Source: an uncultured bacterium
Lineage (GTDB): Bacteria > Verrucomicrobiota > Verrucomicrobiia > CAIQCK01
Assembly: GCA_903870275.1 (NCBI GenBank)
Contig: CAIQCK010000007.1
Location: forward strand, 1 to 49,279
Length of the DNA stretch: 49,279 nucleotides
Direction: 5' to 3'
Positions 25,994 through 37,398 of the stretch are shown one piece after another (position 1 is the stretch's first letter; each line of letters starts with the position of its first letter). Both the position numbers and the translations under genes were made by a program. Below the pieces are notes generated by a model that did not search any database, had not been told where the DNA came from, and saw nothing but the letters and a program-made list of their open reading frames with translations.

Positions 25994-26800
25994 CTACGCG
26001 GGCGGTGGTTTTTGCGCCATGGCGTAGAGCAGCGTCTTGATCTCGAACGGTTTCAGGCGCGGCCATTTCGAGAGCAGCAAGGCGCAGATGGCGGTGATGT
26101 GCGGCGCGGCGAAACTGCTGCCGATTTCGTAGATGTAACCGCCGCCGGGCTGCGGCACTTTGACATAGCTGCCGTTGGCGATGAACTCGGTGAACGTCTT
26201 GGGCTTGAGTTGGTAGGCAAACTGCAACGCGTCCTTGAACGACGCCCAATAGACCTTGATCAGGTTCGAGAAGATGGACGGAAAACTCGGCAGCCCCTCG
26301 TTTTCACCGGCGGCCACGAGGATGCGGTCGCGATAGTAGGCCTTCTCCACCAGCTTGTGGAAGGTCTCGAAATAGGCGCTGCCTTCGCTGACGAGCAGGC
26401 CGTTACTGAGATTGATGACCTGGCAGTTTTCGATGGCCCAGTCCGTACCGACGATCATGTGTTTCGGTTTGCCGCCGGCGTATTTGTAGCCGTCCGAGCC
26501 GACGCCGATGCAAGAAAGCACGCGCACGCTGTAAATCTCCGCCTCCGGCGCGAGCCGCGCGATCACGCCCGCGCAACCGGTGCCGTGCCCCGCGGCGTCC
26601 TGGCCGTCGTAGGGCTTCATCGCGATCTGGCCGCCGCCCTCGTCCACGATGACGCCGCCCTTGACGTGGCCAGCGAGGTCGGGATGCTTGTTGTCCACGC
26701 CGCTGTCCACGACGGCGACCTTGACGCCTTTGCCGGTCGCGCCTTGGAGCAGTTCGGCGACGCTGAGTTGGCCGAACGGCGATGGAAGAGAATCAGGCAT
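25994..26800 (-). CDS. cytoplasmic subtilisin-like serine protease (S8), possible leader peptidase
   Basis: 268 residues. Catalytic residues are visible: Asp32 in VAVVDSGVD, His72 in AAGHGTGCAGV, and Ser229 in EIGSSFAAPH. The oxyanion region is VAAGENEG rather than the canonical AAAGNxG. There is no signal peptide and no propeptide; the catalytic Asp comes only 32 residues in, so the enzyme should stay in the cytoplasm. Small prodomain-free subtilases process precursor peptides in some RiPP pathways, and this one closes the run that contains three putative precursors, so leader removal is a reasonable guess. A repeat element lies directly upstream and the start (ATG 26800) lacks a clear ribosome-binding site. 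Confidence 0.85.
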   Translation of the reverse strand: MPDSLPSPFGQLSVAELLQGATGKGVKVAVVDSGVDNKHPDLAGHVKGGVIVDEGGGQIAMKPYDGQDAAGHGTGCAGVIARLAPEAEIYSVRVLSCIGVGSDGYKYAGGKPKHMIVGTDWAIENCQVINLSNGLLVSEGSAYFETFHKLVEKAYYRDRILVAAGENEGLPSFPSIFSNLIKVYWASFKDALQFAYQLKPKTFTEFIANGSYVKVPQPGGGYIYEIGSSFAAPHITAICALLLSKWPRLKPFEIKTLLYAMAQKPPPA

Positions 26801-26985
26801 GGAGCTATGGAGTAGTGGAGAAATGGAATGTTGGAGTAACGGAGTGCTGGAGAGTTGGGTATTGGGGTGTCGGGGCGTTGGAATGTTGGAGTAATGGCGT
26901 CATGAGACAACCTCGGCGAAATTCATCATTCTACATGTCCATTTTTCCAATACTCCAATACTCCAACACTCCATTGCTCCTTTTC
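26801..26985. repeat. TGGAGTA-type degenerate repeat with inverted half
   Basis: From 26801 to about 26895 the plus strand has many degenerate copies of TGGAGTANNGGAGT spaced 9-10 bp. From about 26941 to 26980 the complementary version appears (TCCAATACTCCAATACTCC). The element fills the whole gap between the response regulator and the subtilase. Low-complexity elements of this kind recur in Verrucomicrobia intergenic regions; the extent here is approximate. Confidence 0.7.
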
Positions 26986-26992
26986 CTTCGGT

Positions 26993-28189
26993 TCACATCT
27001 TGATCTCGGGCAACGACTCGCGCTGGCTCTTGAACATGGTCAAAAGGTTGGCGAGCAACTTTTCGCAAAAATCCATCGCCGGCGGGCCGAACCGGGACAG
27101 CTCGCGGATTTGTGCGGCGAGGACCGCGGCGCGTTCGCCGCTGCCGACGAGGTCGAGTTGCTTCACGGTTTCCGCCATGCCGCTTAACGCTTGTTGAGCA
27201 GCCTCGCCTTTCTGGCCGGGCGCGCCGGAGGCGGCGTCGGTGGCGAGCTTGAGCGCGCGCAGCAGGAGGTTGTCGGCCATCTGGGTGGCGTTGAGCAGAT
27301 CCAGCGTGGAAGCGCACAGCGCGCCGAGCCGCGAGAGCAATTCGATGTCCTGCGGCTCGTAGTGTTCCTTGTCGAAAATTTCGAGCACACCGATGCAGGT
27401 GTTCTGCGCCACCAGCGGCACGCCGAGTCCCGACTTCCGGCCGGCCTCGACGGAGCCGCTGATTTCGTCGCCGGGCCATGTGCCGCCTTCGGCGCGTGAG
27501 AGCGCGAGGAGCCGGCCCGATTGGGCGACGCGGCCGGCAAATCCACGGCCCAGCGGGATGGGCGTCGGGTTTGGTTCGGCGCCGACCGCGCAACGCGCGG
27601 CGAGCGACTGCCCGCCGGCCTCCAACAGCAGCACCGCCGCCACAGGCGCTTGCGACATCCGCGCGGCCAGGTCGGCGAAGCTGTGCAACGACGTCGCCAA
27701 CTCCGGCGCGCGAGAGAGGCTGGCGACGGATTGTACCGTGGACATGATTTCCTGGATGGTCTTGTGAAACGCCGCGAGCCGGGTCTGCAATACACCGGTC
27801 TGGCGGCGGAGGCTGACAATCTGGACCTGGTTGTCAATCGCTTGCAGGAGCGTTTGCGCGGAGAACTCGGCTTTGAACAGGAAGTCGTGCGCGCCGAGTT
27901 TCAGGAAATGAATCGGCGCATCCTGGCCGGCGAAACCGGTGATGACGATGCAACGGATGTCGGGCAGGGATTTTTTGATTTCGGCGAACATCTCGTCGCC
28001 GCACTTGCCTGGCATGCGGACGTCGGTGAGCAACACGTCGAAGCGTTCCTTCTGGCAAAGCGCGATCGCCTCGGCGCTGCTGTCCACCGCGCGAACCGCG
28101 TGGTCGGTGAGTTGTTTGATGATGCCTTCGTATTCGACCAGGTTCTCGCGCTGGTCGTCCACGAGCAGAATTTTGATGTCGCTGGGCAT
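26993..28189 (-). CDS. REC-GAF response regulator without DNA-binding domain
   Basis: 398 residues from ATG 28189, with GAGAGG upstream. The receiver domain covers residues 1-120 (ILLVDDQ with the acidic pair D11-D12, phosphoacceptor D56 in VLLTDVRMPG, and lysine in DFLFKAEF). A coiled region follows, then a GAF domain at about 165-310 (PTPIPLGRGFAGRVAQSGRLL, GVPLVAQNTCIGVLEIFDKEHY). The C-terminus is helical. No HTH or GGDEF/EAL output domain is visible, so it probably acts through protein contacts. It lies downstream of a membrane histidine kinase on the same strand, separated by 660 bp that carry a small opposite-strand gene remnant. Confidence 0.85.
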   Translation of the reverse strand: MPSDIKILLVDDQRENLVEYEGIIKQLTDHAVRAVDSSAEAIALCQKERFDVLLTDVRMPGKCGDEMFAEIKKSLPDIRCIVITGFAGQDAPIHFLKLGAHDFLFKAEFSAQTLLQAIDNQVQIVSLRRQTGVLQTRLAAFHKTIQEIMSTVQSVASLSRAPELATSLHSFADLAARMSQAPVAAVLLLEAGGQSLAARCAVGAEPNPTPIPLGRGFAGRVAQSGRLLALSRAEGGTWPGDEISGSVEAGRKSGLGVPLVAQNTCIGVLEIFDKEHYEPQDIELLSRLGALCASTLDLLNATQMADNLLLRALKLATDAASGAPGQKGEAAQQALSGMAETVKQLDLVGSGERAAVLAAQIRELSRFGPPAMDFCEKLLANLLTMFKSQRESLPEIKM

Positions 28190-28420
28190 AAGAACCTCTC
28201 CCGGCTGGGTCACAGCCGTCAACGCCGGCATATTGGCAACATCAGCCTCGCCTGTCGAGCCAATGAAACATGGCTTGTGGATTGTTTCAAGCGACGCCGG
28301 CGCGCGGCGCGCCGCGGTCGTGGTTCCCGCCCGCGCTCATGCGGAAACACATTGCATGGAGGGCGAACGCAAGGCATCATCGGCACCGGCTCAACCAGCA
28401 ATTCAACAGATAGAAACCCA

Positions 28421-28792
28421 ATGAAAAAACTCACACCAGCCGCGTGGCTCGTGATGGTCATGCTCATCTGGGCTGTTGGCACTCCCATCGTCAAGGGTGG
28501 GTGAGGCCTCAGCCCTGCCTCGCCGGCAGCTGCCACAATCAGCAGTCCGGTCCGGGGCGAGGTGGTCAGTTTGACCACCAACACACTGAGCGTCAAACAA
28601 GCAAACACGTTCATGGCCGTCACCATTGACTTCACGATCCCGGCCGAGGCGAAAGTCGTGCGTGACGGCAAGACGTGCAAGGTTCAGGACATCAAGAAGG
28701 GCGATTCGGTTGCGGTGGCGTTCTCGTCCAAGTCCGACGGCATGGGCATTTGCGTCACGCAAGTTGAAATCTGCAAGCCCGCTGCGCAGTGA
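28421..28792 (+). pseudogene. small secreted protein interrupted by an in-frame TGA
   Basis: ATG 28421 starts MKKLTPAAWLVMVMLIWAVG, a signal-peptide-like segment, but TGA at 28502-28504 stops it after 27 residues. The same frame continues without a break as GLSPASPAAATISSPVRGE, VVSLTTNTLSVKQ and on through DIKKGDSVAVAFSSKSDGMG to 28792. The downstream part looks like a small beta-barrel domain (GEVVSLTTN, KVQDIKKGDSVAVAF), resembling DUF5666-type periplasmic proteins. The simplest reading is a nonsense mutation (TGG to TGA would restore it) or a sequencing error; a GTG at 28562 could still start a short cytoplasmic form. The rest of the 28190-28849 gap shows no other gene. Confidence 0.5.
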
Positions 28793-28849
28793 TCTGAACG
28801 CGGCCGGCGCGTAGCCCGACACGTTTGCCTCGCCGCCGCCGGTGCCGGA

Positions 28850-31006
28850 TTACGTGATTATCGGCCTTCCGAAAACCGTGGTGGAGGCCGAGGATTTCAC
28901 CGGCGGGCCGGAGAGGGGAAAACCGATGATGATGGTGGTGCCTTGGCCCGCCTGGCTCTCGACGCGCAGATCGGCGCCGTGCGCCCGGAGGATGCCGTGA
29001 CTGATGCCCATGCCGAGGCCGGTGCCTTTGCCTGGCTCCTTGGTGGTGAAGAACGGGACAAAAATCTTTTTCTTCACCTCGTCGCTCATGCCGCAGCCGT
29101 CGTCGGCGATCTTCAGGACGATGAACTCACCCTCCTTGGCGGTGCTAACGGTGATGTTGCCGCCCTCGCGCCCGGTCTTGGCGCAGACTTCCTGGATGGC
29201 GTCCTTGCTGTTGAGCATGAAGTTCATCAGCGCCTGCTGGATTTCCTTCGGGTTGCCCTTCAGGCGCGGCAGTTCGCCAAGCTGGGTGGCGACCTTGATC
29301 CGGGCGTTGATGAGCACGTCGTTGCTGATGGCCAGAGCGTCGCGGATCGTGTCGTTGAGATCGAACGGGAAGAACGACCCGACGTCGGCGGGCCGGGCGA
29401 AGGTGCTGAGTTTGTTCGAAATCTCCGCGCAGCGGGCGACGCTTTGGATGATGAGGTCGAGACCCTCTTCCAGGCCAACATCGCGATTCATGCGGTGCGC
29501 CATCAGCATCCGCTCGGCGCGGAGTTTGACGGGATTGAGGGCGTTCTTGATTTCGTGGGCGACGCCGGCGGCCACCACGCCCAACAAGGACTGGCGCTGG
29601 GAGGCGAAGAGTTGCTTGTCCTTGCTCTCCAGCGCCGCGAAGGCGTCATCCTTCTCCTTGAGCGTTTGCTGGATGACGCCGACCATTTGCGCGTAGGCTG
29701 TGGACAATTCGTGCGATTCCCGCGAGTAATGCTTTGCGGCGGCCAGCGTCTCGGCGCGCTGCCGGTGGGCGGGATCGGTGGGCGTGCCGCTTACGAAGGC
29801 AAGGGCCGCCTGGGCGATTTGCTCCAGCGGCTGCGCGATGCGATGTCGCAGCCGCACGGCCATGTAAACGCTGGCCAGGATCATCACCACGGTCAACGCG
29901 ATGATCGTGTTGGTCATGAACCGGCGGACGGAATGGACCGTATTGCGGAACGCGCCGAGCATGGGTGCCTGCCCGCGCAACTGGAACGCGACCATGCCGC
30001 GCAAAGCGCCATGATGGAACACCGGCGTGAACACATCGTAAGCCTGTGGCGCGGCCGATGCCGCCGGCCCGTTGCCGGAGGCCAGTTCGCGCTGACGCAC
30101 GTGGGCCGTCATGCGCACCAGCGACGGGTCGCCCTTGAGACCGCGCGTAAACCGGAACGCGGGGTCGGTTTGCAGTTCGCTGAGAAACGGCAGGCCGTTC
30201 TGGTCGAAGAAAGTGATGCTCAGGAGATTGACCGTGCCTTTCTTGACATCCGCCAGATAGAGCACCAGGTCGCGCATCTCGAAGGAATACCGCACCAACG
30301 ATGCGCTCCCGGCCAGCACACGGCCGGAGGGCCAGCCCTCGACAATCTTCGTGCCGGGTATGATCTGGCGGCTGATGCAGCTCTCCGCGAGGCGGTCGGC
30401 TTCCTCGATGGACGCGGGCATCTTGTTGAAGGCCACCGTCAACACCGCGATCGGGGTAATCCGCCCGAAGCTCTCACGGTAAAGCAGCAACCGCCGCTCG
30501 TAGAACGTATGCCGGGCGCCGGCCACCGGCTGGACCATCTCATAGGCCATCTGGTTCAACAGCCGGGGCGGATAGACCGCGCTGTCCCACGCCAGCTTCT
30601 GCGGTTCGGGCAAATCCTGGAACGTCAGCCCGTCACGATACACGGTGGCAACCTCGCCGTTGACGGTGTTGAAAATCCGCGCGTAGGCCAGCTCGGGATG
30701 GCTGCGCAACGCAGCCCACATCACCACTTGTTGTTCGGCGGCGAGGTCGAACAAACCCAGCACCTGAGTCGTCAACACTGCGGCGTCCAGTCCGCCGATG
30801 GAACGAATCGCTGCGCGTTCGCGGCTCGTCCAGTCCTCTTCCAGTTTCACCACCACCGGATGGAAAAACCGGAACGCCACCACGATCAACAACGCCGCCA
30901 CCACGCCGAAGATCACACTCAGGCCGATGAAATGGCGTGACAGCCGCCGGCTCAGGGAAATTTCCGGCCGCGAAGACGGAGCGGGTTGGGAGGAGGGCGT
31001 GGTCAT
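28850..31006 (-). CDS. membrane sensor histidine kinase
   Basis: 718 residues from ATG 31006, which overlaps the stop of the upstream lipoprotein gene as ATGA. A first membrane helix at ~27-49 ([19 protein letters not shown]) and a second ([20 protein letters not shown]) flank a ~300-residue periplasmic sensor region. A HAMP-like linker and coiled coil follow. The HisKA box is [19 protein letters not shown] with the phosphorylated His near residue 484. The ATPase domain shows the N box ([10 protein letters not shown]), G1 (IADDGCGM) and G2 ([10 protein letters not shown]). Translational coupling to a solute-binding lipoprotein suggests the two act together in sensing. The probable partner is the REC-GAF protein downstream. 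Confidence 0.92.
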
Positions 31007-32649
31007 GGCGAGACAGCGGAAGCGCCCGGCGCGGCAGCGCGCGGAACCATGAAACGTTGCTCGGCCTCCAGGAGCACCTGGAGACCCGCCAGCGAATCCT
31101 GGGCCGAGGCGCCCGTTTCCACCACGGCCGCCGTCTCAGGCAGGCCCGGCGGTTCCTCGCCGGGCACAAGCGGCTTGGGGGCAAGCACCGTGTGCAGGAA
31201 ACCGTCGAGCAGAGCGCCACGGTTGATCGAAAATGGATTCGGCCGCACCGTCAGGCGCGCGGGGTCGTTTAAAATCGCCTCGATCTCACGCATGACCACC
31301 AGTGTCTGGCGGCCAAGCTGCAAACTCCGCTCGTCCATCTGGCGCGTGCCGGCGCGCACCTCGGCAAGGTAATCTTCGTAAGCGCACCACTCGCGGCGGG
31401 AGCCGAACACGGCGGCGACCTCCTGCTCTGTCAGCGATTGCAGCAGGCCGCGCCGCGCGGGAACCTCGAATTGGTCGAAGAACATCGCGCGCTGGCCCGC
31501 CTCCGACAGCAGGTAGCGCACCAGTTCCTGCGCCACCTCGCGGGCCGCCTGCGCGCCCGGATCGTTGGAGGCGATTTGCCGGCTGCAGATGATGCACTTG
31601 CCGCCGAGCAATGAAAAACCCGGCGCGGCCGCGTTGGGGGAAATCGAGAGCGGCATGATGCCGATGTCGTCCAACGGCGCCGGTGGTCCCCATGGCGAGA
31701 TCAGAATGCGCTGCCCCCAGAGGGAGAGTAGCCACGCTGAGGAGAACCCCGCGCCGGCCTGCCCCACCAACGGCACGTTCGTGAAACGGCGCATGTGCTG
31801 TTTCCATTCCGCGAGGAATTCCATGCGCGTCGCCGCCGTTGCCCAGGTCTCGATTTGCATGGATTGCCCCAACGTGTCGAGCACCTGTCTCGCCGCCGGC
31901 GTATCCACGGCGAATGTTCCATTCGTCTGCCGCGGCCAATCCGGCTCCAGACTCCAGATCAGCGGGAGGAAAAAGCGAAAAAACTCCTGCCCGTCTGTCT
32001 CGACGGAGGAAAGCGGCAGGCCCGAGGATTGGGCGTCGCGCGCTTTGGATTGAAACAACGACACCCATGCCTGGCGCGCCTCGTCGGCGCTGTTGAAGTA
32101 GCTCTTCCGATAGAAGAGCAGGTCCGCGGCGCGTGAGATCGGGACGCCGTAGATGCGCGGGGAATTCGGGTCGTCGCCAGGACCCACGGCGCGGATCGGC
32201 TCAACACCCGCCGCGCGCAACATCGGGCCGACGACCGCTTCGTCGTAGGGCGCCAGCCAGCCGTTGCGCGCAAACTCTTCGACCCACGCCGTGTTGGACA
32301 CCGCCACGTCCATCGGCTGCAACATTTCCGACGAGCGAGCGCCGAACGACAACTCCGTCATCGGATAGACGGATGACAGCGTCCCCGCGAGTTCCTGGTA
32401 GAGTTCGGAAGGCAGCGGATCGAAATCGGGCAGCCGGACCAGTTCATAACGCCGCGGCTGGCCGTCCGGATTGACGGCCTTATGGAAACGCGTGGCGAGG
32501 TCTTGGAACCAAAACCCGCAACCGCGATAGAACGCCTGCTTCGGCCGCGACGCCGGAGCCGGCGGCGCCTCGGAGCAGCCGGCAGACAGGAGCGCGGCGG
32601 CGACGAGAACGCCGCCGAGCCGCACGCACGCTTTGATCCGATCGCTCAC
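31003..32649 (-). CDS. extracellular solute-binding protein-like lipoprotein
   Basis: 548 residues if the GTG at 32649 is the start. This places a short signal and lipobox LLSAGC at the N-terminus, 28 bp after the exporter gene; no ATG lies nearby. The mature part resembles family 1 (sugar-type) binding proteins (VSNTAWVEEFARNGWLAPYDEAV, YGVPISRAADLLFYRKSYFNS, FSLLGGKCIICSRQ, VRYLLSEAGQRAMFFD). No ABC importer permease is present. With the histidine kinase overlapping its 3' end (ATGA), it is more likely to present a ligand to the sensor than to feed an importer. The ligand is unknown. Confidence 0.78.
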   Translation of the reverse strand: MSDRIKACVRLGGVLVAAALLSAGCSEAPPAPASRPKQAFYRGCGFWFQDLATRFHKAVNPDGQPRRYELVRLPDFDPLPSELYQELAGTLSSVYPMTELSFGARSSEMLQPMDVAVSNTAWVEEFARNGWLAPYDEAVVGPMLRAAGVEPIRAVGPGDDPNSPRIYGVPISRAADLLFYRKSYFNSADEARQAWVSLFQSKARDAQSSGLPLSSVETDGQEFFRFFLPLIWSLEPDWPRQTNGTFAVDTPAARQVLDTLGQSMQIETWATAATRMEFLAEWKQHMRRFTNVPLVGQAGAGFSSAWLLSLWGQRILISPWGPPAPLDDIGIMPLSISPNAAAPGFSLLGGKCIICSRQIASNDPGAQAAREVAQELVRYLLSEAGQRAMFFDQFEVPARRGLLQSLTEQEVAAVFGSRREWCAYEDYLAEVRAGTRQMDERSLQLGRQTLVVMREIEAILNDPARLTVRPNPFSINRGALLDGFLHTVLAPKPLVPGEEPPGLPETAAVVETGASAQDSLAGLQVLLEAEQRFMVPRAAAPGASAVSP

Positions 32650-32677
32650 GGTCAGGTTGATAACCCAAGGCCGGCGT

Positions 32678-34555
32678 TTAGTAAACGCTGAGGATTTGCT
32701 TCTCGTAAAGCTCGTGGTAATAACCGGGTTGATTCTTGAGTTCCTGGTGCGTGCCTTGTTGCACCAGCCGGCCACGACGGTCGCCCGCGTGGCCCAAAAC
32801 AAAAATCTGGTCCACGTCGGCCACGGCCTGCAACGCGTGCGAGATGACGATGCAGGTGCGACCGTGAATGAGTTTCTTCAGGCTGACTAGGAGGTCGCTG
32901 GCCACGTCGGCGCTGAGCGACGCCAGCGGCTCGTCGAGCAGGATGATGGAAGGCTGGCGCAGGTAGCAGCGCGCGATGGCGATGCTGACCTGCTCGCCGC
33001 CGCTGAAGGCGTTGATGTTCGTCTCGTAGCCGGAGCAAACGCCGTCATTCTTGCGCTGGATGACGTCGTGAATCTGCGCGTCCTGGCAGGCGCGGATGAT
33101 CTGCTCCTCGGTCGCGTCCGGCTTGGCCAGCAGGAGGTTTTCCCTCACGCTCGCCTGTTTGAAAAACGGCTTTTGCGTGACCATGCCGAACTGCGCACGC
33201 AGGCTGGCCATCGTGTAGTGGCGGATGTCCACGCCGTCAATCTCGATGACGCCCCGGCCGTCCTCGGTTTCCAGGAAACGGCAAAGCAGGTTGAAGATGG
33301 TGCTCTTGCCGCAGCCGCGCCGGCCCACGAGCGCCACACGCTGGCCGGCCTTGATTTCGAAACCGAGATCGTTCAACACCGACGGCGCACCGGGCGAGTA
33401 GGCGAAGGTGACGTTGCGGAACGCGATCCTGTCGCGCAACGGCGGCATCGGTTTCGCGTCGGGCCGGTCCACCACGCGGGGCGGCGTTTCCAGAATCTGG
33501 AAGCCTTCGCCGATCTGCGGCCGCAGTTCGGTGTAGTGCGCCGCGGTGCTGCAAAGCGACACCAGCAACGAGAACACGCTCGGCACCAGCGTGTAGAAAA
33601 CGAACAGCTCCGACCAGCCGCCGGCGAGCTTGCCGGTTTGCACCAGCCAACTGCCCGCCCCCAGAATGACCAGCAAGGTGACCGTGCCGATGAGCGCGGT
33701 GGTCTGGCTGTTGATGCCCTGCCACCGCTCGACGCGCAGGTTCAGGCGGATGAGTTCATCGCTCAGGTCGCGCATGGCGTGGATAATCCAGCCCTGGGCG
33801 TTGTTGAGCTGGATTTCCTTCACGCCGATGATGCCCTCGAACATTTTGCCGCCATAGACGTTGTCCATCTCATTGCGCTCAAACGAGACGCGCTCCAGCG
33901 TCGGATAAATGAACCAGACGATGACGAACGGGATCGCGCTGACCGCCGCCAGCAGCAGCAACGTCAGATGCCAGTTCAGACTGAAGAGGTAGCCCACGTA
34001 GGCGACGAGGAAGATCGCATCAGCGCCGGCCAGCACCACGGTGTCGCAGAGCAGAAACTGGACCGCCGTGGCCACTTTGCTCAACTGCCGCATCAATTCG
34101 CCCGGATTGCGGCCCATGAAAAAGTCCACCGACTGCGCCTGCATGAACTCGAAGACGCGGAATTGAAACAGCCGGCTCAGCCGCTCCCGCAACGCCGCGG
34201 CCCAGTAGGTCTGGTAAAACTCCAGCGGCACGCGCAGCAGCGTGAGCGCCACAAACACCCCAAACGCCGTCGCCCACGGGCTGGATTGCATCAGCGCCTG
34301 GGTGAGCACGCCGGATTGACGGGCCATCACAACCAGCAGGATGCCCGCCATCAACCGCGCGGCCAGCAACTCCCACATCGTGACACGCACGACGCGCCTC
34401 TCATCCTCGGTAAGGATGCGCCACGAACCGCGCAAAAAGTATAAGAGCGACCGTTGGGGCAACGGCGGCTCCGGCGGAGGACCCATCATCTCCGGCGGCG
34501 GTGACTGTGGACCGGCTTGCGGACCGGGAGATGGGCCGGGAGGTGGAGTATTCAC
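32678..34555 (-). CDS. ABC exporter (fused membrane and ATPase domains)
   Basis: 625 residues from GTG 34555; ATG 34489 is an alternative, because the first ~35 residues are Pro-rich (NTPPPGPSPGPQAGPQ) and may not be translated. A six-helix exporter membrane domain occupies about 60-340. The ATPase follows: Walker A VGRRGCGKST near residue 410, Q-loop MVTQKPFF, signature FSGGEQVSIA (FSGGE instead of LSGGQ), Walker B SIILLDEPLAS and switch histidine VISHAL. There is no N-terminal C39 peptidase domain, so it does not cleave leaders itself. Directly downstream of the three precursor genes, it is the likely exporter of the modified peptides. Inner membrane. Confidence 0.9.
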   Translation of the reverse strand: MNTPPPGPSPGPQAGPQSPPPEMMGPPPEPPLPQRSLLYFLRGSWRILTEDERRVVRVTMWELLAARLMAGILLVVMARQSGVLTQALMQSSPWATAFGVFVALTLLRVPLEFYQTYWAAALRERLSRLFQFRVFEFMQAQSVDFFMGRNPGELMRQLSKVATAVQFLLCDTVVLAGADAIFLVAYVGYLFSLNWHLTLLLLAAVSAIPFVIVWFIYPTLERVSFERNEMDNVYGGKMFEGIIGVKEIQLNNAQGWIIHAMRDLSDELIRLNLRVERWQGINSQTTALIGTVTLLVILGAGSWLVQTGKLAGGWSELFVFYTLVPSVFSLLVSLCSTAAHYTELRPQIGEGFQILETPPRVVDRPDAKPMPPLRDRIAFRNVTFAYSPGAPSVLNDLGFEIKAGQRVALVGRRGCGKSTIFNLLCRFLETEDGRGVIEIDGVDIRHYTMASLRAQFGMVTQKPFFKQASVRENLLLAKPDATEEQIIRACQDAQIHDVIQRKNDGVCSGYETNINAFSGGEQVSIAIARCYLRQPSIILLDEPLASLSADVASDLLVSLKKLIHGRTCIVISHALQAVADVDQIFVLGHAGDRRGRLVQQGTHQELKNQPGYYHELYEKQILSVY

Positions 34556-34612
34556 AAGAACAAGCGGAGAGAAACCCGATTCAGATCGTTCGGACGCGAA
34601 TGGTGCTTGCGC

Positions 34613-34651
34613 TCCTCCCCGGCCGGCGTTTCGCGGCGCGGCCGGGGAGGA
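34613..34651. other. 13-bp perfect hairpin after precursor gene A
   Basis: TCCTCCCCGGCCG (34613-34625) pairs perfectly with 34639-34651 around a 13-nt loop. It begins 22 nt downstream of the stop of the 34674 gene on the minus strand. There is no T-tract, so it is a weak terminator at best; it may stabilise the precursor mRNA or attenuate read-through into the exporter gene. Confidence 0.7.
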
Positions 34652-34673
34652 ATCCGCAAGACAAGGGCATGTC

Positions 34674-35114
34674 CTACCAGCCGTAATGGTTCATGTAGTT
34701 CTGGTAGTTGTAATAGTTATTGTAGTTGGGATAGGAAGCGGCCGCCAAGGCGCCCAAGCCCACGCCGATGCCGAATCCCGCCCATCCGCCGCCATGCCAC
34801 CCGCCGCCGTGTCCGCCTCCGCCATGAGGGCCACCGTGGTAGGCTTGCACCTGGCCCTGAGGACCGGCGCCCGCCTGCATGACCTGCGGAGGACCGCCCC
34901 CGCCGACGTAGATGATGACGCTGGGCGTGTTGAGTGCCATCGGGCTGCCCGCCGGCGCGCCCGGCGCACAACAGGGCTGCTGTTGCTGGGATTGCTGCGC
35001 GACGCCGGCGCCACGCAGTGTTTCCTCCACTTTATCGGCCGGCACGAGGAACTTTTCGGCGTCCTCGTCCGGTATCTGGTAGAATTGACCGTTGATGCTT
35101 TGCAGAATTGCCAT
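34674..35114 (-). CDS. putative RiPP precursor peptide A, five YxN repeats
   Basis: 146 residues from ATG 35114, with AGGAAGGG upstream. The first ~38 residues form a leader-like block shared with two paralogues (SINGQFYQIPDEDAEKFLVP, ADKVEETLRGAG). A low-complexity Gln/Gly/Pro linker follows, containing CC at 48-49, and then QVQAYH and a Gly/His/Trp-rich stretch. The C-terminus is five contiguous tripeptides, YPN, YNN, YYN, YQN, YMN at residues 128-142, closed by HYGW. No signal peptide. The constant leader, variable linker and repeated aromatic-X-Asn core next to a radical SAM/SPASM enzyme fit a ribosomally made, post-translationally modified peptide. The modification is not known. Confidence 0.8.
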   Translation of the reverse strand: MAILQSINGQFYQIPDEDAEKFLVPADKVEETLRGAGVAQQSQQQQPCCAPGAPAGSPMALNTPSVIIYVGGGGPPQVMQAGAGPQGQVQAYHGGPHGGGGHGGGWHGGGWAGFGIGVGLGALAAASYPNYNNYYNYQNYMNHYGW

Positions 35115-35206
35115 GGCTTTTCCCTTCCTGAATCTATCGGTTGAACAACCGCCGTGAGTCCCATGAACACTTCGCGCAGCCGTGGCGGTTCCGGTTGCCG
35201 AGGCGG

Positions 35207-35235
35207 TTCCTTCCCGGCAGCGTGCCGGGGAGGAA
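35207..35235. other. hairpin after precursor gene B
   Basis: TTCCTTCCCGGCA (35207-35219) pairs with 35223-35235 at 12 of 13 positions around a GCG loop. It lies 21 nt after the stop of the 35257 gene. The right arm CCGGGGAGGAATC is the same as in the hairpin at 34613-34651, so the hairpin was duplicated together with the precursor gene. Confidence 0.7.
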
Positions 35236-35256
35236 TCAGCGACACCGAGTCGCGGC

Positions 35257-35535
35257 TTACCAGCCGTAATGGTTCATGTAGTTCTGGTAATTATAATAGT
35301 TGTTGTAGGGAGCGACGAATGGACCACCCCAACCACCCCAGTTATGATAATGATGGCCCCAGTGGTAGGCTTGGACCTGGCCGGTTTGTTGCGGCGCCTG
35401 CCCGGCTCCTGCGGGCGCGCCGACACCGGCTGCCTTCAGGGTTTCGGCAACCTTGTCCGCAGGGATCAAGTATGCCGTTGCTTGCTCATCCGGCACGTTA
35501 TAGAGCCGGCCGTCTATGCTTTTCATCAGTGGCAT
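35257..35535 (-). CDS. putative RiPP precursor peptide B, four YxN repeats
   Basis: 92 residues from ATG 35535, with AAAGGA upstream. The leader block is KSIDGRLYNVPDEQATAYLI then PADKVAETLKAAG, colinear with peptides A and C. A short linker leads to QVQAYHWGHHYHNWGGWGG and then YNN, YYN, YQN, YMN (residues 77-88) and HYGW. The last 15 residues are identical to those of peptide A, and the DNA is nearly identical too, so A and B are a recent tandem duplication. It is the shortest of the three and the best guess for the minimal precursor. No signal peptide, so export needs the ABC transporter. Confidence 0.8.
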   Translation of the reverse strand: MPLMKSIDGRLYNVPDEQATAYLIPADKVAETLKAAGVGAPAGAGQAPQQTGQVQAYHWGHHYHNWGGWGGPFVAPYNNYYNYQNYMNHYGW

Positions 35536-35570
35536 GTGTGTTTGTCCTTTCTCTGAGTTGGGCTGGGTTT

Positions 35571-35936
35571 CTACCAGCCAAAATAATTGCGGTAGTTGGC
35601 GTAGTTGTAATAGTTGTAGTAACCGCCCCACCACCCATGCGGGCCGTGGTGCCAGTGGTAGGCTTGCACCTGGCTTGGCCCTGGCTGAGCCGCCGAGGGT
35701 TGCTGGGGGCCGCCCATCGGCATGCCTTGTGGCGCACCACCGCCGGCGACGATGACGACCGCTGGCGCGCTGGCGCCCATGGAAGCGCAACTGGCGGCTG
35801 GCGCGGCAGCCTGGGGTTGCACGGCACCCGCGTCGCGCAAGGTTTCTTCCACCTTGTCGGCCGGCACGAGGAACTTTCCTGCCTCCTCGTCCGGTATCTG
35901 GTAGAAACGTCCATCTATGCTTCGCAGAATGACCAT
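35571..35936 (-). CDS. putative RiPP precursor peptide C, four YxN repeats
   Basis: 121 residues from ATG 35936 behind a strong AAAGGAG. The leader block is RSIDGRFYQIPDEEAGKFLV then PADKVEETLRDAG, very close to peptide A. An Ala/Pro/Gly/Gln-rich linker follows (one Cys at residue 50), then QVQAYHWHHGPHGWWGG and YYN, YYN, YAN, YRN at residues 106-117, ending YFGW. It is the first precursor after the radical SAM gene (110-bp gap) and is 35 bp from peptide B. The X residues differ from A and B while every Tyr and Asn in the triplets is kept, so Tyr and Asn are the constrained positions. Confidence 0.8.
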   Translation of the reverse strand: MVILRSIDGRFYQIPDEEAGKFLVPADKVEETLRDAGAVQPQAAAPAASCASMGASAPAVVIVAGGGAPQGMPMGGPQQPSAAQPGPSQVQAYHWHHGPHGWWGGYYNYYNYANYRNYFGW

Positions 35937-36045
35937 GCTGGTTCTCCTTTCTTGATCAGCCGGTTGAGTTGCTGGTTCTGGCATCAGGCCAACCTTCCTG
36001 GCCTTGCCTGAAATCTTCCTGCCTTTCGACGTTTTCATGGCTGTC

Positions 36046-37398
36046 TTATTCGATGGTTTGTGGAATGGGGGCCAAGTCCGTGCCGTCCGGTTGGACGAGA
36101 TTGAGACCGACCTGAGCGGAAAGTTCGATCATGGCTGCGGCTGGCTGGCCGGGCGCCGGCACGCCGGCGCGGGCCATGCCGCTGCACGGGTGATTGCCGG
36201 TGTGCATTGGCAGAAACGGCGGCGTGAGTTTTCCCTCGCGCGCCTCGGAGGCCATTTTTTCCGTGGCGGCCTGGAAACGCATGACCAGCCGCTGGACGAG
36301 GTCCGGATGACACCACAGGTATTGGTGGAGCAACTGGGTGGCGTGGCACTCAATCTCGCGGGTGGGGATGGAGTTCTTGTCAAAGGCCGTGCAGCCGAAC
36401 AAACAGATGAGTTTGGCCTGACAGCCGAAACAGCGCAGATACCACAAATCCTTCTCGTGGAACGTCCGCAAAATGGACGGGCACTGACTGAGGCTGCCGG
36501 GATCGTTGACGTTGCCGAGCTTGCCCAAGTCGGCGTCCGAGGAGCGGCCACAGGGCCACACGTCGCCGTTGGGGTCCACGCCGATCAGCGACACGCCGGC
36601 ACCGCAATTGTAAGTGTGACAGTTGCGCTCGGTCATATCGCGCTGGCCGGTGAAGAAGTAAAAGAGCTGGCGGATCAGGTCGGGGCCGAGAAGGCGCACG
36701 TTGCCGGATTGGTCGGCGCGTTCGAGCAACTGGCGTTTGGCGTTGTAGAGTTCGTCGCCCGTCAGGTTGTCCACGTTCATGCCGCGGCCGGTGGGGCACG
36801 TCGCGTTGAACATGACCGCGAACCCTTTCTGGTCGAAGTAATCCACCACTTCGTCCATGTGGGCGATGGTGTTCTTGTTGATTTGCGCGATCACGCCCGG
36901 CGGCGCCCCTTCGCGCATCAGGAGTTCGATGGTTTCCTCCACGCGCTTGCCGGCCTGGCGATGGACATCGCTGAGTCGCGGCGGCCCGTCGAGACTGGTG
37001 CCGATCTGGATACGATATTTCTTGACGAGCTGCAAAAACTCGGGCGTCAGCCGGGTGAGGTTGCTCTGCATGCCGATGGCGAGTCGTTTCAGGCGCGGGT
37101 TGGCCTCGCCGGCGCTGATGCAAAACTCGATCGCCTCTTCATACCACGGAATCGGCAACAACATCGGCTCGCCGCCGTGGAAGATCCACTGAAGCTCCGG
37201 CGACTCCGTGTCGCCGATCAGCAACGTGGCGGCGCGCTTGTGGGTCTCCATCGTCATCGTGGCGCCCGGTTGGGAGACCGGGATGGCGTCGGCGCAACAA
37301 TAGCTGCAACGCAGGTTGCAACTGCTGGTCACCTTGGCGATGACCATGCGGATTTGACGAAAGTCCGCCGCTGGTTTCCTTTGGACACCTTGCTGCAT
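36046..37398 (-). CDS. radical SAM/SPASM peptide maturase
   Basis: 450 residues from ATG 37398 (GGAG upstream); the next Met, residue 18, is an alternative. The radical SAM cluster motif CNLRCSYC gives Cys27, Cys31 and Cys34, followed by the SAM-binding HGGEPML and later GTSLDGP. The C-terminal SPASM region is NCGAGVSLIGVDPNGDVWPCG plus CFGCQAKLICLFGC and a last pair of cysteines, enough for auxiliary iron-sulfur clusters. Such enzymes make C-C, C-S or C-O crosslinks in ribosomal peptides. Three putative precursors with tandem Tyr-X-Asn cores follow on the same strand, so they are the obvious substrates. Divergent from a GT-C-type gene. Confidence 0.93.
   Translation of the reverse strand: MQQGVQRKPAADFRQIRMVIAKVTSSCNLRCSYCCADAIPVSQPGATMTMETHKRAATLLIGDTESPELQWIFHGGEPMLLPIPWYEEAIEFCISAGEANPRLKRLAIGMQSNLTRLTPEFLQLVKKYRIQIGTSLDGPPRLSDVHRQAGKRVEETIELLMREGAPPGVIAQINKNTIAHMDEVVDYFDQKGFAVMFNATCPTGRGMNVDNLTGDELYNAKRQLLERADQSGNVRLLGPDLIRQLFYFFTGQRDMTERNCHTYNCGAGVSLIGVDPNGDVWPCGRSSDADLGKLGNVNDPGSLSQCPSILRTFHEKDLWYLRCFGCQAKLICLFGCTAFDKNSIPTREIECHATQLLHQYLWCHPDLVQRLVMRFQAATEKMASEAREGKLTPPFLPMHTGNHPCSGMARAGVPAPGQPAAAMIELSAQVGLNLVQPDGTDLAPIPQTIE

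Follow-up and report, generated by a model that had tools for sequence, protein, structure and literature searches.

The triceptide enzyme OscB joins an aromatic ring to the beta carbon of the residue two positions further on, in Trp/Phe-x-Asn and Trp-x-Asp triplets, and YxdB makes the same type of bond on Tyr-x-Asp (PMC11002830). PapB, a thioether-forming ranthipeptide maturase, links Cys to Asp or Glu (PMC9413430). In the Qhp pathway (PMC7876137), crosslinking by QhpD is followed by cytoplasmic removal of a 28-residue leader by QhpE and then by export through the ATP-binding cassette (ABC) protein QhpF. We analyzed a stretch of 49,279 nucleotides from an uncultured bacterium of the class Verrucomicrobiia (assembly GCA_903870275.1, contig CAIQCK010000007.1, whole stretch hereafter called the window), which carries on its minus strand, at 25994-37398, an operon where a radical S-adenosylmethionine (SAM)/SPASM maturase accompanies three small precursors ending in tandem Tyr-x-Asn (YxN) triplets. 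We consider it fairly probable that the SPASM enzyme joins each Tyr to the Asn two residues on, and that the tails are then cut by a subtilase and exported. We read the system as a new family of ribosomally synthesized and post-translationally modified peptides (RiPPs), triceptide-like in chemistry and Qhp-like in pathway.

Precursor 1 (35571-35936, minus strand, 121 aa), precursor 2 (35257-35535, minus, 92 aa) and precursor 3 (34674-35114, minus, 146 aa) share one plan: a common leader block (e.g. MAILQSINGQFYQIPDEDAEKFLVPADKVEETL), a variable linker, a QVQAY motif, a stretch rich in His, Gly and Trp, a row of YxN triplets and an aromatic-Gly-Trp end. The stretch after QVQAY is of His/Gly/Trp type in precursor 1, His/Trp/Gly type in precursor 2 and Gly/His type in precursor 3, whose linker contains the sequence SVIIYVGGGG. 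Four in-phase triplets follow in a row in precursors 1 and 2, and five in precursor 3. When the last 30 residues were shuffled 20000 times, the observed run was equalled 0, 1 and 0 times for precursors 3, 2 and 1, respectively, indicating that the runs are not due to chance. A preliminary description of this DNA, made without database searches, had proposed three paralogous proteins with a shared leader and repetitive aromatic tails, which these results bear out. Its core formula (YxN)n-HYGW fits precursors 2 and 3, but precursor 1 ends YRN-YFGW, and the leader ending that it gave, ADKVEETL, reads ADKVAETL in precursor 2. The ATG of each of the three precursors is preceded by a Shine-Dalgarno-like purine stretch.

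The same pattern holds among the relatives. Out of 45 unique precursors (drawn from 49), 41 have a YxN run of three to five triplets, with 2, 32 and 7 precursors having 3, 4 and 5 triplets, respectively. Among the four remaining ones, L026:41-367 reads YFN-YQD-YRN, a single natural N-to-D variant, and the three that have no tail (P0069, P0074 and P0083) come from contigs of 603-1064 bases. Over 169 triplets the x position is occupied by 12 kinds of residues, and Y and N are nearly fixed. In a 30-row alignment excluding the three tail-less fragments, Y134, N136, Y137, Y140 and N142 are invariant and Y131, N133 and N139 are conserved in at least 90% of the rows. This constancy of Tyr and Asn around a free x, together with the natural N-to-D replacement, is compatible with OscB/YxdB-type chemistry on Tyr-x-Asn. 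A VxAY-type motif ([VI]x[AG]Y) is present in all 45 unique precursors, 38 of which have the exact QVQAY. Over all the loci compared, 124 out of 124 (YxN)3+ runs lie inside leader-bearing frames, a count that includes duplicates from overlapping loci and a set of loci gathered largely by such searches. The count of synonymous changes at the Tyr and Asn positions was not used, because it is not independent of a set of runs chosen by their YxN pattern.

Precursors and maturase keep company across genomes. A protein search with the maturase, in which scoring was confined to the 7997 candidates with the most words in common, gave 59 matches: a compact group of 13 (P0004-P0016, 63-98% identity) and then matches at 36% or less. 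Five of these 13 have an organism in their source name, which is Verrucomicrobia, Verrucomicrobiia or Verrucomicrobiae. Amongst 384 genomes of the class, 10 have a maturase match at E<=1e-30, eight of them at 67-100% identity; the more distant relatives are in G157 (34% and 30%) and G025 (29%), with a second match (29%) in G052, itself one of the eight. The precursor profile A2 (E<=1e-4) matched precisely the eight genomes with a maturase of at least 67% identity and none of the other 376; since the profile was partly built from these eight, their detection is not independent and the absence from the 376 is the informative half. In all eight genomes the precursors adjoin the maturase. The partnership proposed in the preliminary description thus stands, and the case that could have overturned it, a maturase clade occurring without YxN proteins, was looked for and is not what we observe. 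Maturase and precursors are found in 7/7 genomes compared from the family of the window's genome. In the family of G052 the maturase is in 1/2 genomes, and the extended match there crosses one TGA (none in the class-genome search). L038 encodes a 27% relative of the maturase. A draw of 387 genomes of the phylum, searched with the maturase of L028 (a distant cluster, see below), returned the window's genome alone. Recent mobile cargo is unlikely, because the window contains no tRNA and the maturase occurs in 7/7 family genomes. We found no verrucomicrobial YxN RiPP in the library of open-licence papers searched, a scope that leaves subscription papers and bioRxiv aside.

Gene order is conserved as well. 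The full series maturase, precursors, ABC exporter, binding protein, kinase, REC-GAF protein and subtilase recurs in L021, L023 and L027, the last belonging to another family and having two precursors instead of three. L022 keeps the order up to the REC-GAF gene, where the contig ends, and the short contigs L024, L025 and L026 carry nothing of the operon beyond maturase and precursors. In these four genomes (G003, G029, G020 and G047) the subtilase gene sits on a different contig, just downstream of a relative of the window's GAF region. Downstream of the window's subtilase lies an oxidoreductase gene, which we place outside the operon because it has no match after the subtilase in L021, L023 and L027; a 33% match is found at the other end of L021.

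The maturase (36046-37398, minus, 450 aa) has the radical SAM motif CNLRCSYC (C27/C31/C34) and seven further cysteines arranged as C265-x12-G-x4-C283, C323-x2-C326-x5-C332-x3-C336 and C351, which conform to the canonical SPASM spacing. The CxxxCxxC motif and all seven SPASM cysteines are invariant across 12 aligned relatives. The protein passes the Pfam Radical_SAM model (46.6 bits, cut-off 29.5) and scores 15.4 bits against the SPASM model (cut-off 21.5). Only about 20 residues precede the core, leaving no room for an N-terminal recognition domain. A structure model from a 47-row alignment is usable (predicted local distance difference test, pLDDT, 85.5; predicted template modelling score, pTM, 0.84), and the solved folds nearest to it are anSME, CteB, the ChlB-leader complex, TigE, SkfB and SuiB; this likeness of a predicted fold does not reveal the reaction.

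The other genes of the operon are all on the minus strand, and the nine genes listed in the preliminary description were all recovered by reading the window and by NCBIfam and Pfam scans. The ABC exporter (32678-34555) has membrane and ATPase domains (PF00664, PF00005) and, in these scans, no match to a peptidase domain. The binding-protein-like lipoprotein (31003 to about 32649; PF01547/PF13416) is 548 aa long from a probable GTG start at 32649, preferred because the same frame has an upstream stop in two out of four relatives; a Cys follows its hydrophobic N-terminal segment in the window and in four relatives. The histidine kinase (28850-31006; HisKA and HATPase_c) has two hydrophobic segments (22-56 and 362-387), the large region between them likely being outside the membrane. 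The REC-GAF protein (26993-28231) contains no DNA-binding domain recognized by Pfam. The subtilase (25994-26800) has the catalytic motifs DSG, GHGT and GSSFA and begins at the catalytic domain, without signal or prodomain. In the proposed mechanism the precursor would be recruited by its leader to the maturase, in the cytoplasm. There each Tyr ring, predicted to react at C3, would be joined to the beta carbon of the Asn of its triplet, so that consecutive three-residue rings would form a ladder. Cleavage near the VxAY-type motif would come next and would fall to the subtilase, which has no prodomain, much as QhpE takes the leader off QhpC. The tail, rich in His and Gly and by then crosslinked, would finally be exported by the ABC protein, in which no peptidase domain was matched. 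That the Qhp order of crosslinking, cytoplasmic cleavage and export applies here is what we infer from gene content only. Most speculatively, the lipoprotein and the kinase would detect the peptide once it is outside, or a ligand of it, and a signal would pass by way of REC to the GAF protein, whose relatives usually have a subtilase as neighbour. Maturation or export would thereby be controlled by what is sensed outside; gating of transcription is not proposed, since Pfam recognizes no DNA-binding domain in the REC-GAF protein. This sensing role is drawn purely from gene content and order.

Several results weigh against this reading. A maturase model from a 12-row alignment was unusable (pLDDT 48.9). 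The maturase exceeds no NCBIfam cut-off among the 25 models listed of 60 matched (the maturase and precursors 1 and 2 were entered with some residues upstream of their starts); its top score is with PapB (NF047865, 117.6 bits, cut-off 340), and it reaches 73.7 bits against GrrM/OscB (TIGR04261, cut-off 310). The matches of the lipoprotein in the PDB are weak and are to sugar-binding proteins (best E 0.008). In two genomes, pairs of precursors have no maturase within the 20 kb read (L066:8048-9891 in G000:C44; L067:10167-12045 in G003:C1); both pairs are followed by a paralogue of the operon's histidine kinase that is shorter at its N terminus. Finally, the same leader type with VxAYHWGH is followed by ankyrin repeats and no YxN tail in one genome (L068:9170-9850, G029:C247) and in two metagenome proteins (P0094 and P0095). 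The leader and VxAY are consequently not solely a maturase signal; something other than the YxN reaction probably recognizes them too, the protease or the exporter being the simplest candidates.

The subtilase adds to these points. Its best NCBIfam model is mycosin (105.3 bits, cut-off 278.75), above QhpE (68.7 bits, cut-off 165). At E<=1e-22 relatives of it occur in 32 out of 384 class genomes (37 matches), and in 26 of the 30 loci fetched (L069-L098) a GAF frame lies directly upstream, 6 of these 26 having supplied GAF proteins to the search profile. This recurrent verrucomicrobial pair, a GAF protein followed by a subtilase that has no prodomain, is found in 8 YxN operons, 2 other radical SAM loci and 16 places elsewhere. 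In a wider set of 18 loci (L099-L116), from which L101, L103, L108 and L114 were dropped as they gave no subtilase frame, 1 of the 14 shown has a relative of the window's maturase within 6.5 kb. Since the subtilase pairs with GAF mostly away from such a maturase in the loci examined, its presence does not point specifically to leader removal. In the preliminary description the locus was a complete system for making, processing, exporting and sensing a peptide: the gene set and its order are indeed conserved, but leader cleavage by the subtilase is less certain than was implied. The GAF-subtilase pair is likely a general verrucomicrobial module recruited by the YxN operon, and the window's GAF protein seems to have gained its receiver domain; it is from this combination that we propose gating of the protease by phosphotransfer. 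In some loci the pair adjoins ABC or CobW-type genes.

Up to 56 residues, rich in Gly and His, follow VxAY, with arms of the HHGHHGGHHGG type containing up to 12 His; the arms of both L026 precursors are Pro-rich and have 1-2 His. Cys after VxAY is absent from the window's three precursors, and 1-2 are present in some relatives. The C-terminal end of tailed precursors is aromatic and varies (YGW, FGF, WGW, WCW, GGGW). Among 17 precursors of 6 genomes, the x residues of the tails are 0.44 identical within the same genome, 0.39 within the same type and 0.29 in neither case, and 39 out of 5000 label permutations reached the same-genome value; for the leaders the figures are 0.65, 0.84 and 0.65. 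This is a modest sign that the tails of same-genome paralogues are alike beyond what their leaders lead one to expect, through concerted change or common selection. It bears on a different view of the small proteins, as envelope or matrix proteins rich in Gly, His and Tyr that the radical SAM enzyme would harden, the operon then belonging to core physiology and making neither a signal nor an antibiotic. This view is compatible with the favoured chemistry, and the maturase being in 7/7 family genomes, the long Gly/His-rich region and the leader on ankyrin-repeat proteins all agree with it. We nevertheless regard it as somewhat unlikely, as a histidine kinase, a REC-GAF protein and a binding protein lie within the operon and as the shared x residues, modest as that signal is, point to specificity more than to structure.

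A second alternative concerns the chemistry. The maturase could perform another radical reaction, namely epimerization, formation of an ether at Tyr or of a C-N bond, or a modification confined to the aromatic C-terminal end, with YxN as a binding platform or structural repeat. Its two highest NCBIfam scores indeed belong to PapB and to DynA, a C-C/C-N forming family (98.8 bits), not to three-residue cyclophane models, and the tailed precursors share their aromatic C terminus with the distant L028 cluster, which has a different repeat (WFHRD) and likewise ends in FGW. However, an i/i+2 crosslink would lead one to expect just such a strict three-residue period, in which Y and N are fixed and x is free. 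Thioether chemistry was rejected for the window because its tails have no Cys after VxAY. Spliceotides arise by a Tyr-Gly-specific splicing reaction, which we also rejected, as the C-terminal end varies. We therefore hold another reaction to be unlikely. It is doubtful that the product is a metal-binding peptide, whose His-rich arm and Tyr/Asn rings would hold a metal while lipoprotein and kinase report the loaded peptide: the His-rich arms and the solute-binding lipoprotein next to the kinase would suit it, and it is compatible with the favoured chemistry, but neither the scans nor the gene-order comparison revealed an import permease in the operon, and the L026 precursors have few His. Least of all do we expect that the tails stay unmodified and the neighbouring enzyme acts on another substrate, for although the crosslink is a prediction and in two genomes a precursor pair is found with no maturase inside the 20 kb read, the 8/8 co-occurrence, the adjacency and the peptide-maturase fold class oppose it, and the genomes with such satellite precursors carry the maturase too.

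Some further observations concern distant or neighbouring sequences. In L028:236-6697 (G157) the two radical SAM enzymes (34% and 30%) are accompanied by a subtilase, a weak match to sigma-70 region 2, a GAF-like protein just under the Pfam cut-off and a 111-aa precursor-like protein with the end WFHRDVWFHRDIVWFHRDFGW and a similar leader (GKFFEIDEE). L029:5326-14004 and L030:3157-11671 encode an ABC exporter, a 29% maturase relative, a 490-aa protein (in L029 with no Pfam match), a GAF protein, a subtilase and two more genes resembling radical SAM enzymes by eye; no precursor was recognized on reading their frames. No YxN precursor was found beside the 29-34% maturase relatives of G157, G025 and G052. 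Contig G000:C44 has a radical SAM match with one internal stop about 14 kb from the L066 precursor pair. In the window the gap between the kinase and REC-GAF genes is 618 bases, against 441, 111 and 40 in L021, L023 and L027, and its opposite strand (28417-28792, plus) has a signal-peptide-like stretch, a stop and then an in-frame open stretch. Two short arrays of 16-base tandem repeats lie at 26807-26980, between the REC-GAF and subtilase genes. Near the start of the window, 101-580 and 1827-2006 contain tandem DNA repeats with periods of 9 to 138, those at 101-580 possibly being collagen-like coding repeats.

Returning to Tyr-Asn crosslinking, a larger picture can be sketched, though as a whole it is tentative and probably wrong in some part. 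The locus would define a new verrucomicrobial RiPP class in which a His/Gly-rich arm bears an unbroken ladder of up to five Tyr-Asn cyclophanes and cleavage is done by a subtilase that a receiver-bearing GAF partner controls; a surface binding protein and a kinase would gate maturation and export by phosphotransfer, not transcription, and the same leader would address ankyrin proteins to the machinery. If true, this would add a maturase clade and a contiguous Tyr-x-Asn substrate pattern outside the listed NCBIfam cyclophane families. It would also mean that a phylum studied little so far makes stiff, crosslinked peptides, and that a two-component system can have a protease module for maturation as its output. 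The predicted change in mass is a loss of 2.016 Da per triplet: precursors 1 and 2 would each lose 8.06 Da and precursor 3 would lose 10.08 Da. Unmodified precursor 2 has a computed monoisotopic mass of 10236.80.

Compared with known systems, the locus shows what characterizes a RiPP: precursors encoded by genes, with a leader that is conserved and a core that varies, next to an enzyme of peptide-maturase type. It shares with the triceptide enzymes (OscB, XncB, MscB, YxdB, YhhB and HaaB) a SPASM radical SAM enzyme, recognized here by motifs and fold with the Pfam SPASM score under its cut-off, and aromatic-x-x triplets in the partner peptide, as (YxN)3-5 in 41/45 unique precursors. It differs in that the maturase is far under the cyclophane cut-offs (GrrM/OscB, AmcB, YhhB, FxsB and XyeB), the Tyr-x-Asn arrays are contiguous, with 3-5 triplets whose crosslinks are predicted, and the leader family and operon partners are its own. 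With the PapB maturases it shares its top NCBIfam match, which is under the cut-off of 340, and the window's tails, having no Cys after VxAY, offer no pairs of Cys with Asp or Glu. The Grr system comprises a Gly-rich precursor, a SPASM maturase and an orphan binding protein, as does this operon. No NCBIfam model claims the precursors or binding protein here, however: precursors 2 and 3 and the binding protein have no match at E up to 1, and precursor 1 matches only EspB (E 0.059), far under its cut-off. With Qhp the locus has in common a radical SAM enzyme, a subtilisin-like protease matching the QhpE model and an ABC exporter; it departs from Qhp in its QhpE (NF049966) and QhpD (TIGR03906; 97.9 bits, cut-off 453) scores, in its Cys-free tails, in having no dehydrogenase-subunit or QhpG-type gene among the nine, and in the added kinase and REC-GAF protein. 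Scores below the cut-offs led us to reject membership in GrrM/OscB, PapB or Qhp. No listed NCBIfam maturase or precursor model passes its cut-off, which agrees with the preliminary description, where the precursor family was not recognized as a named class.

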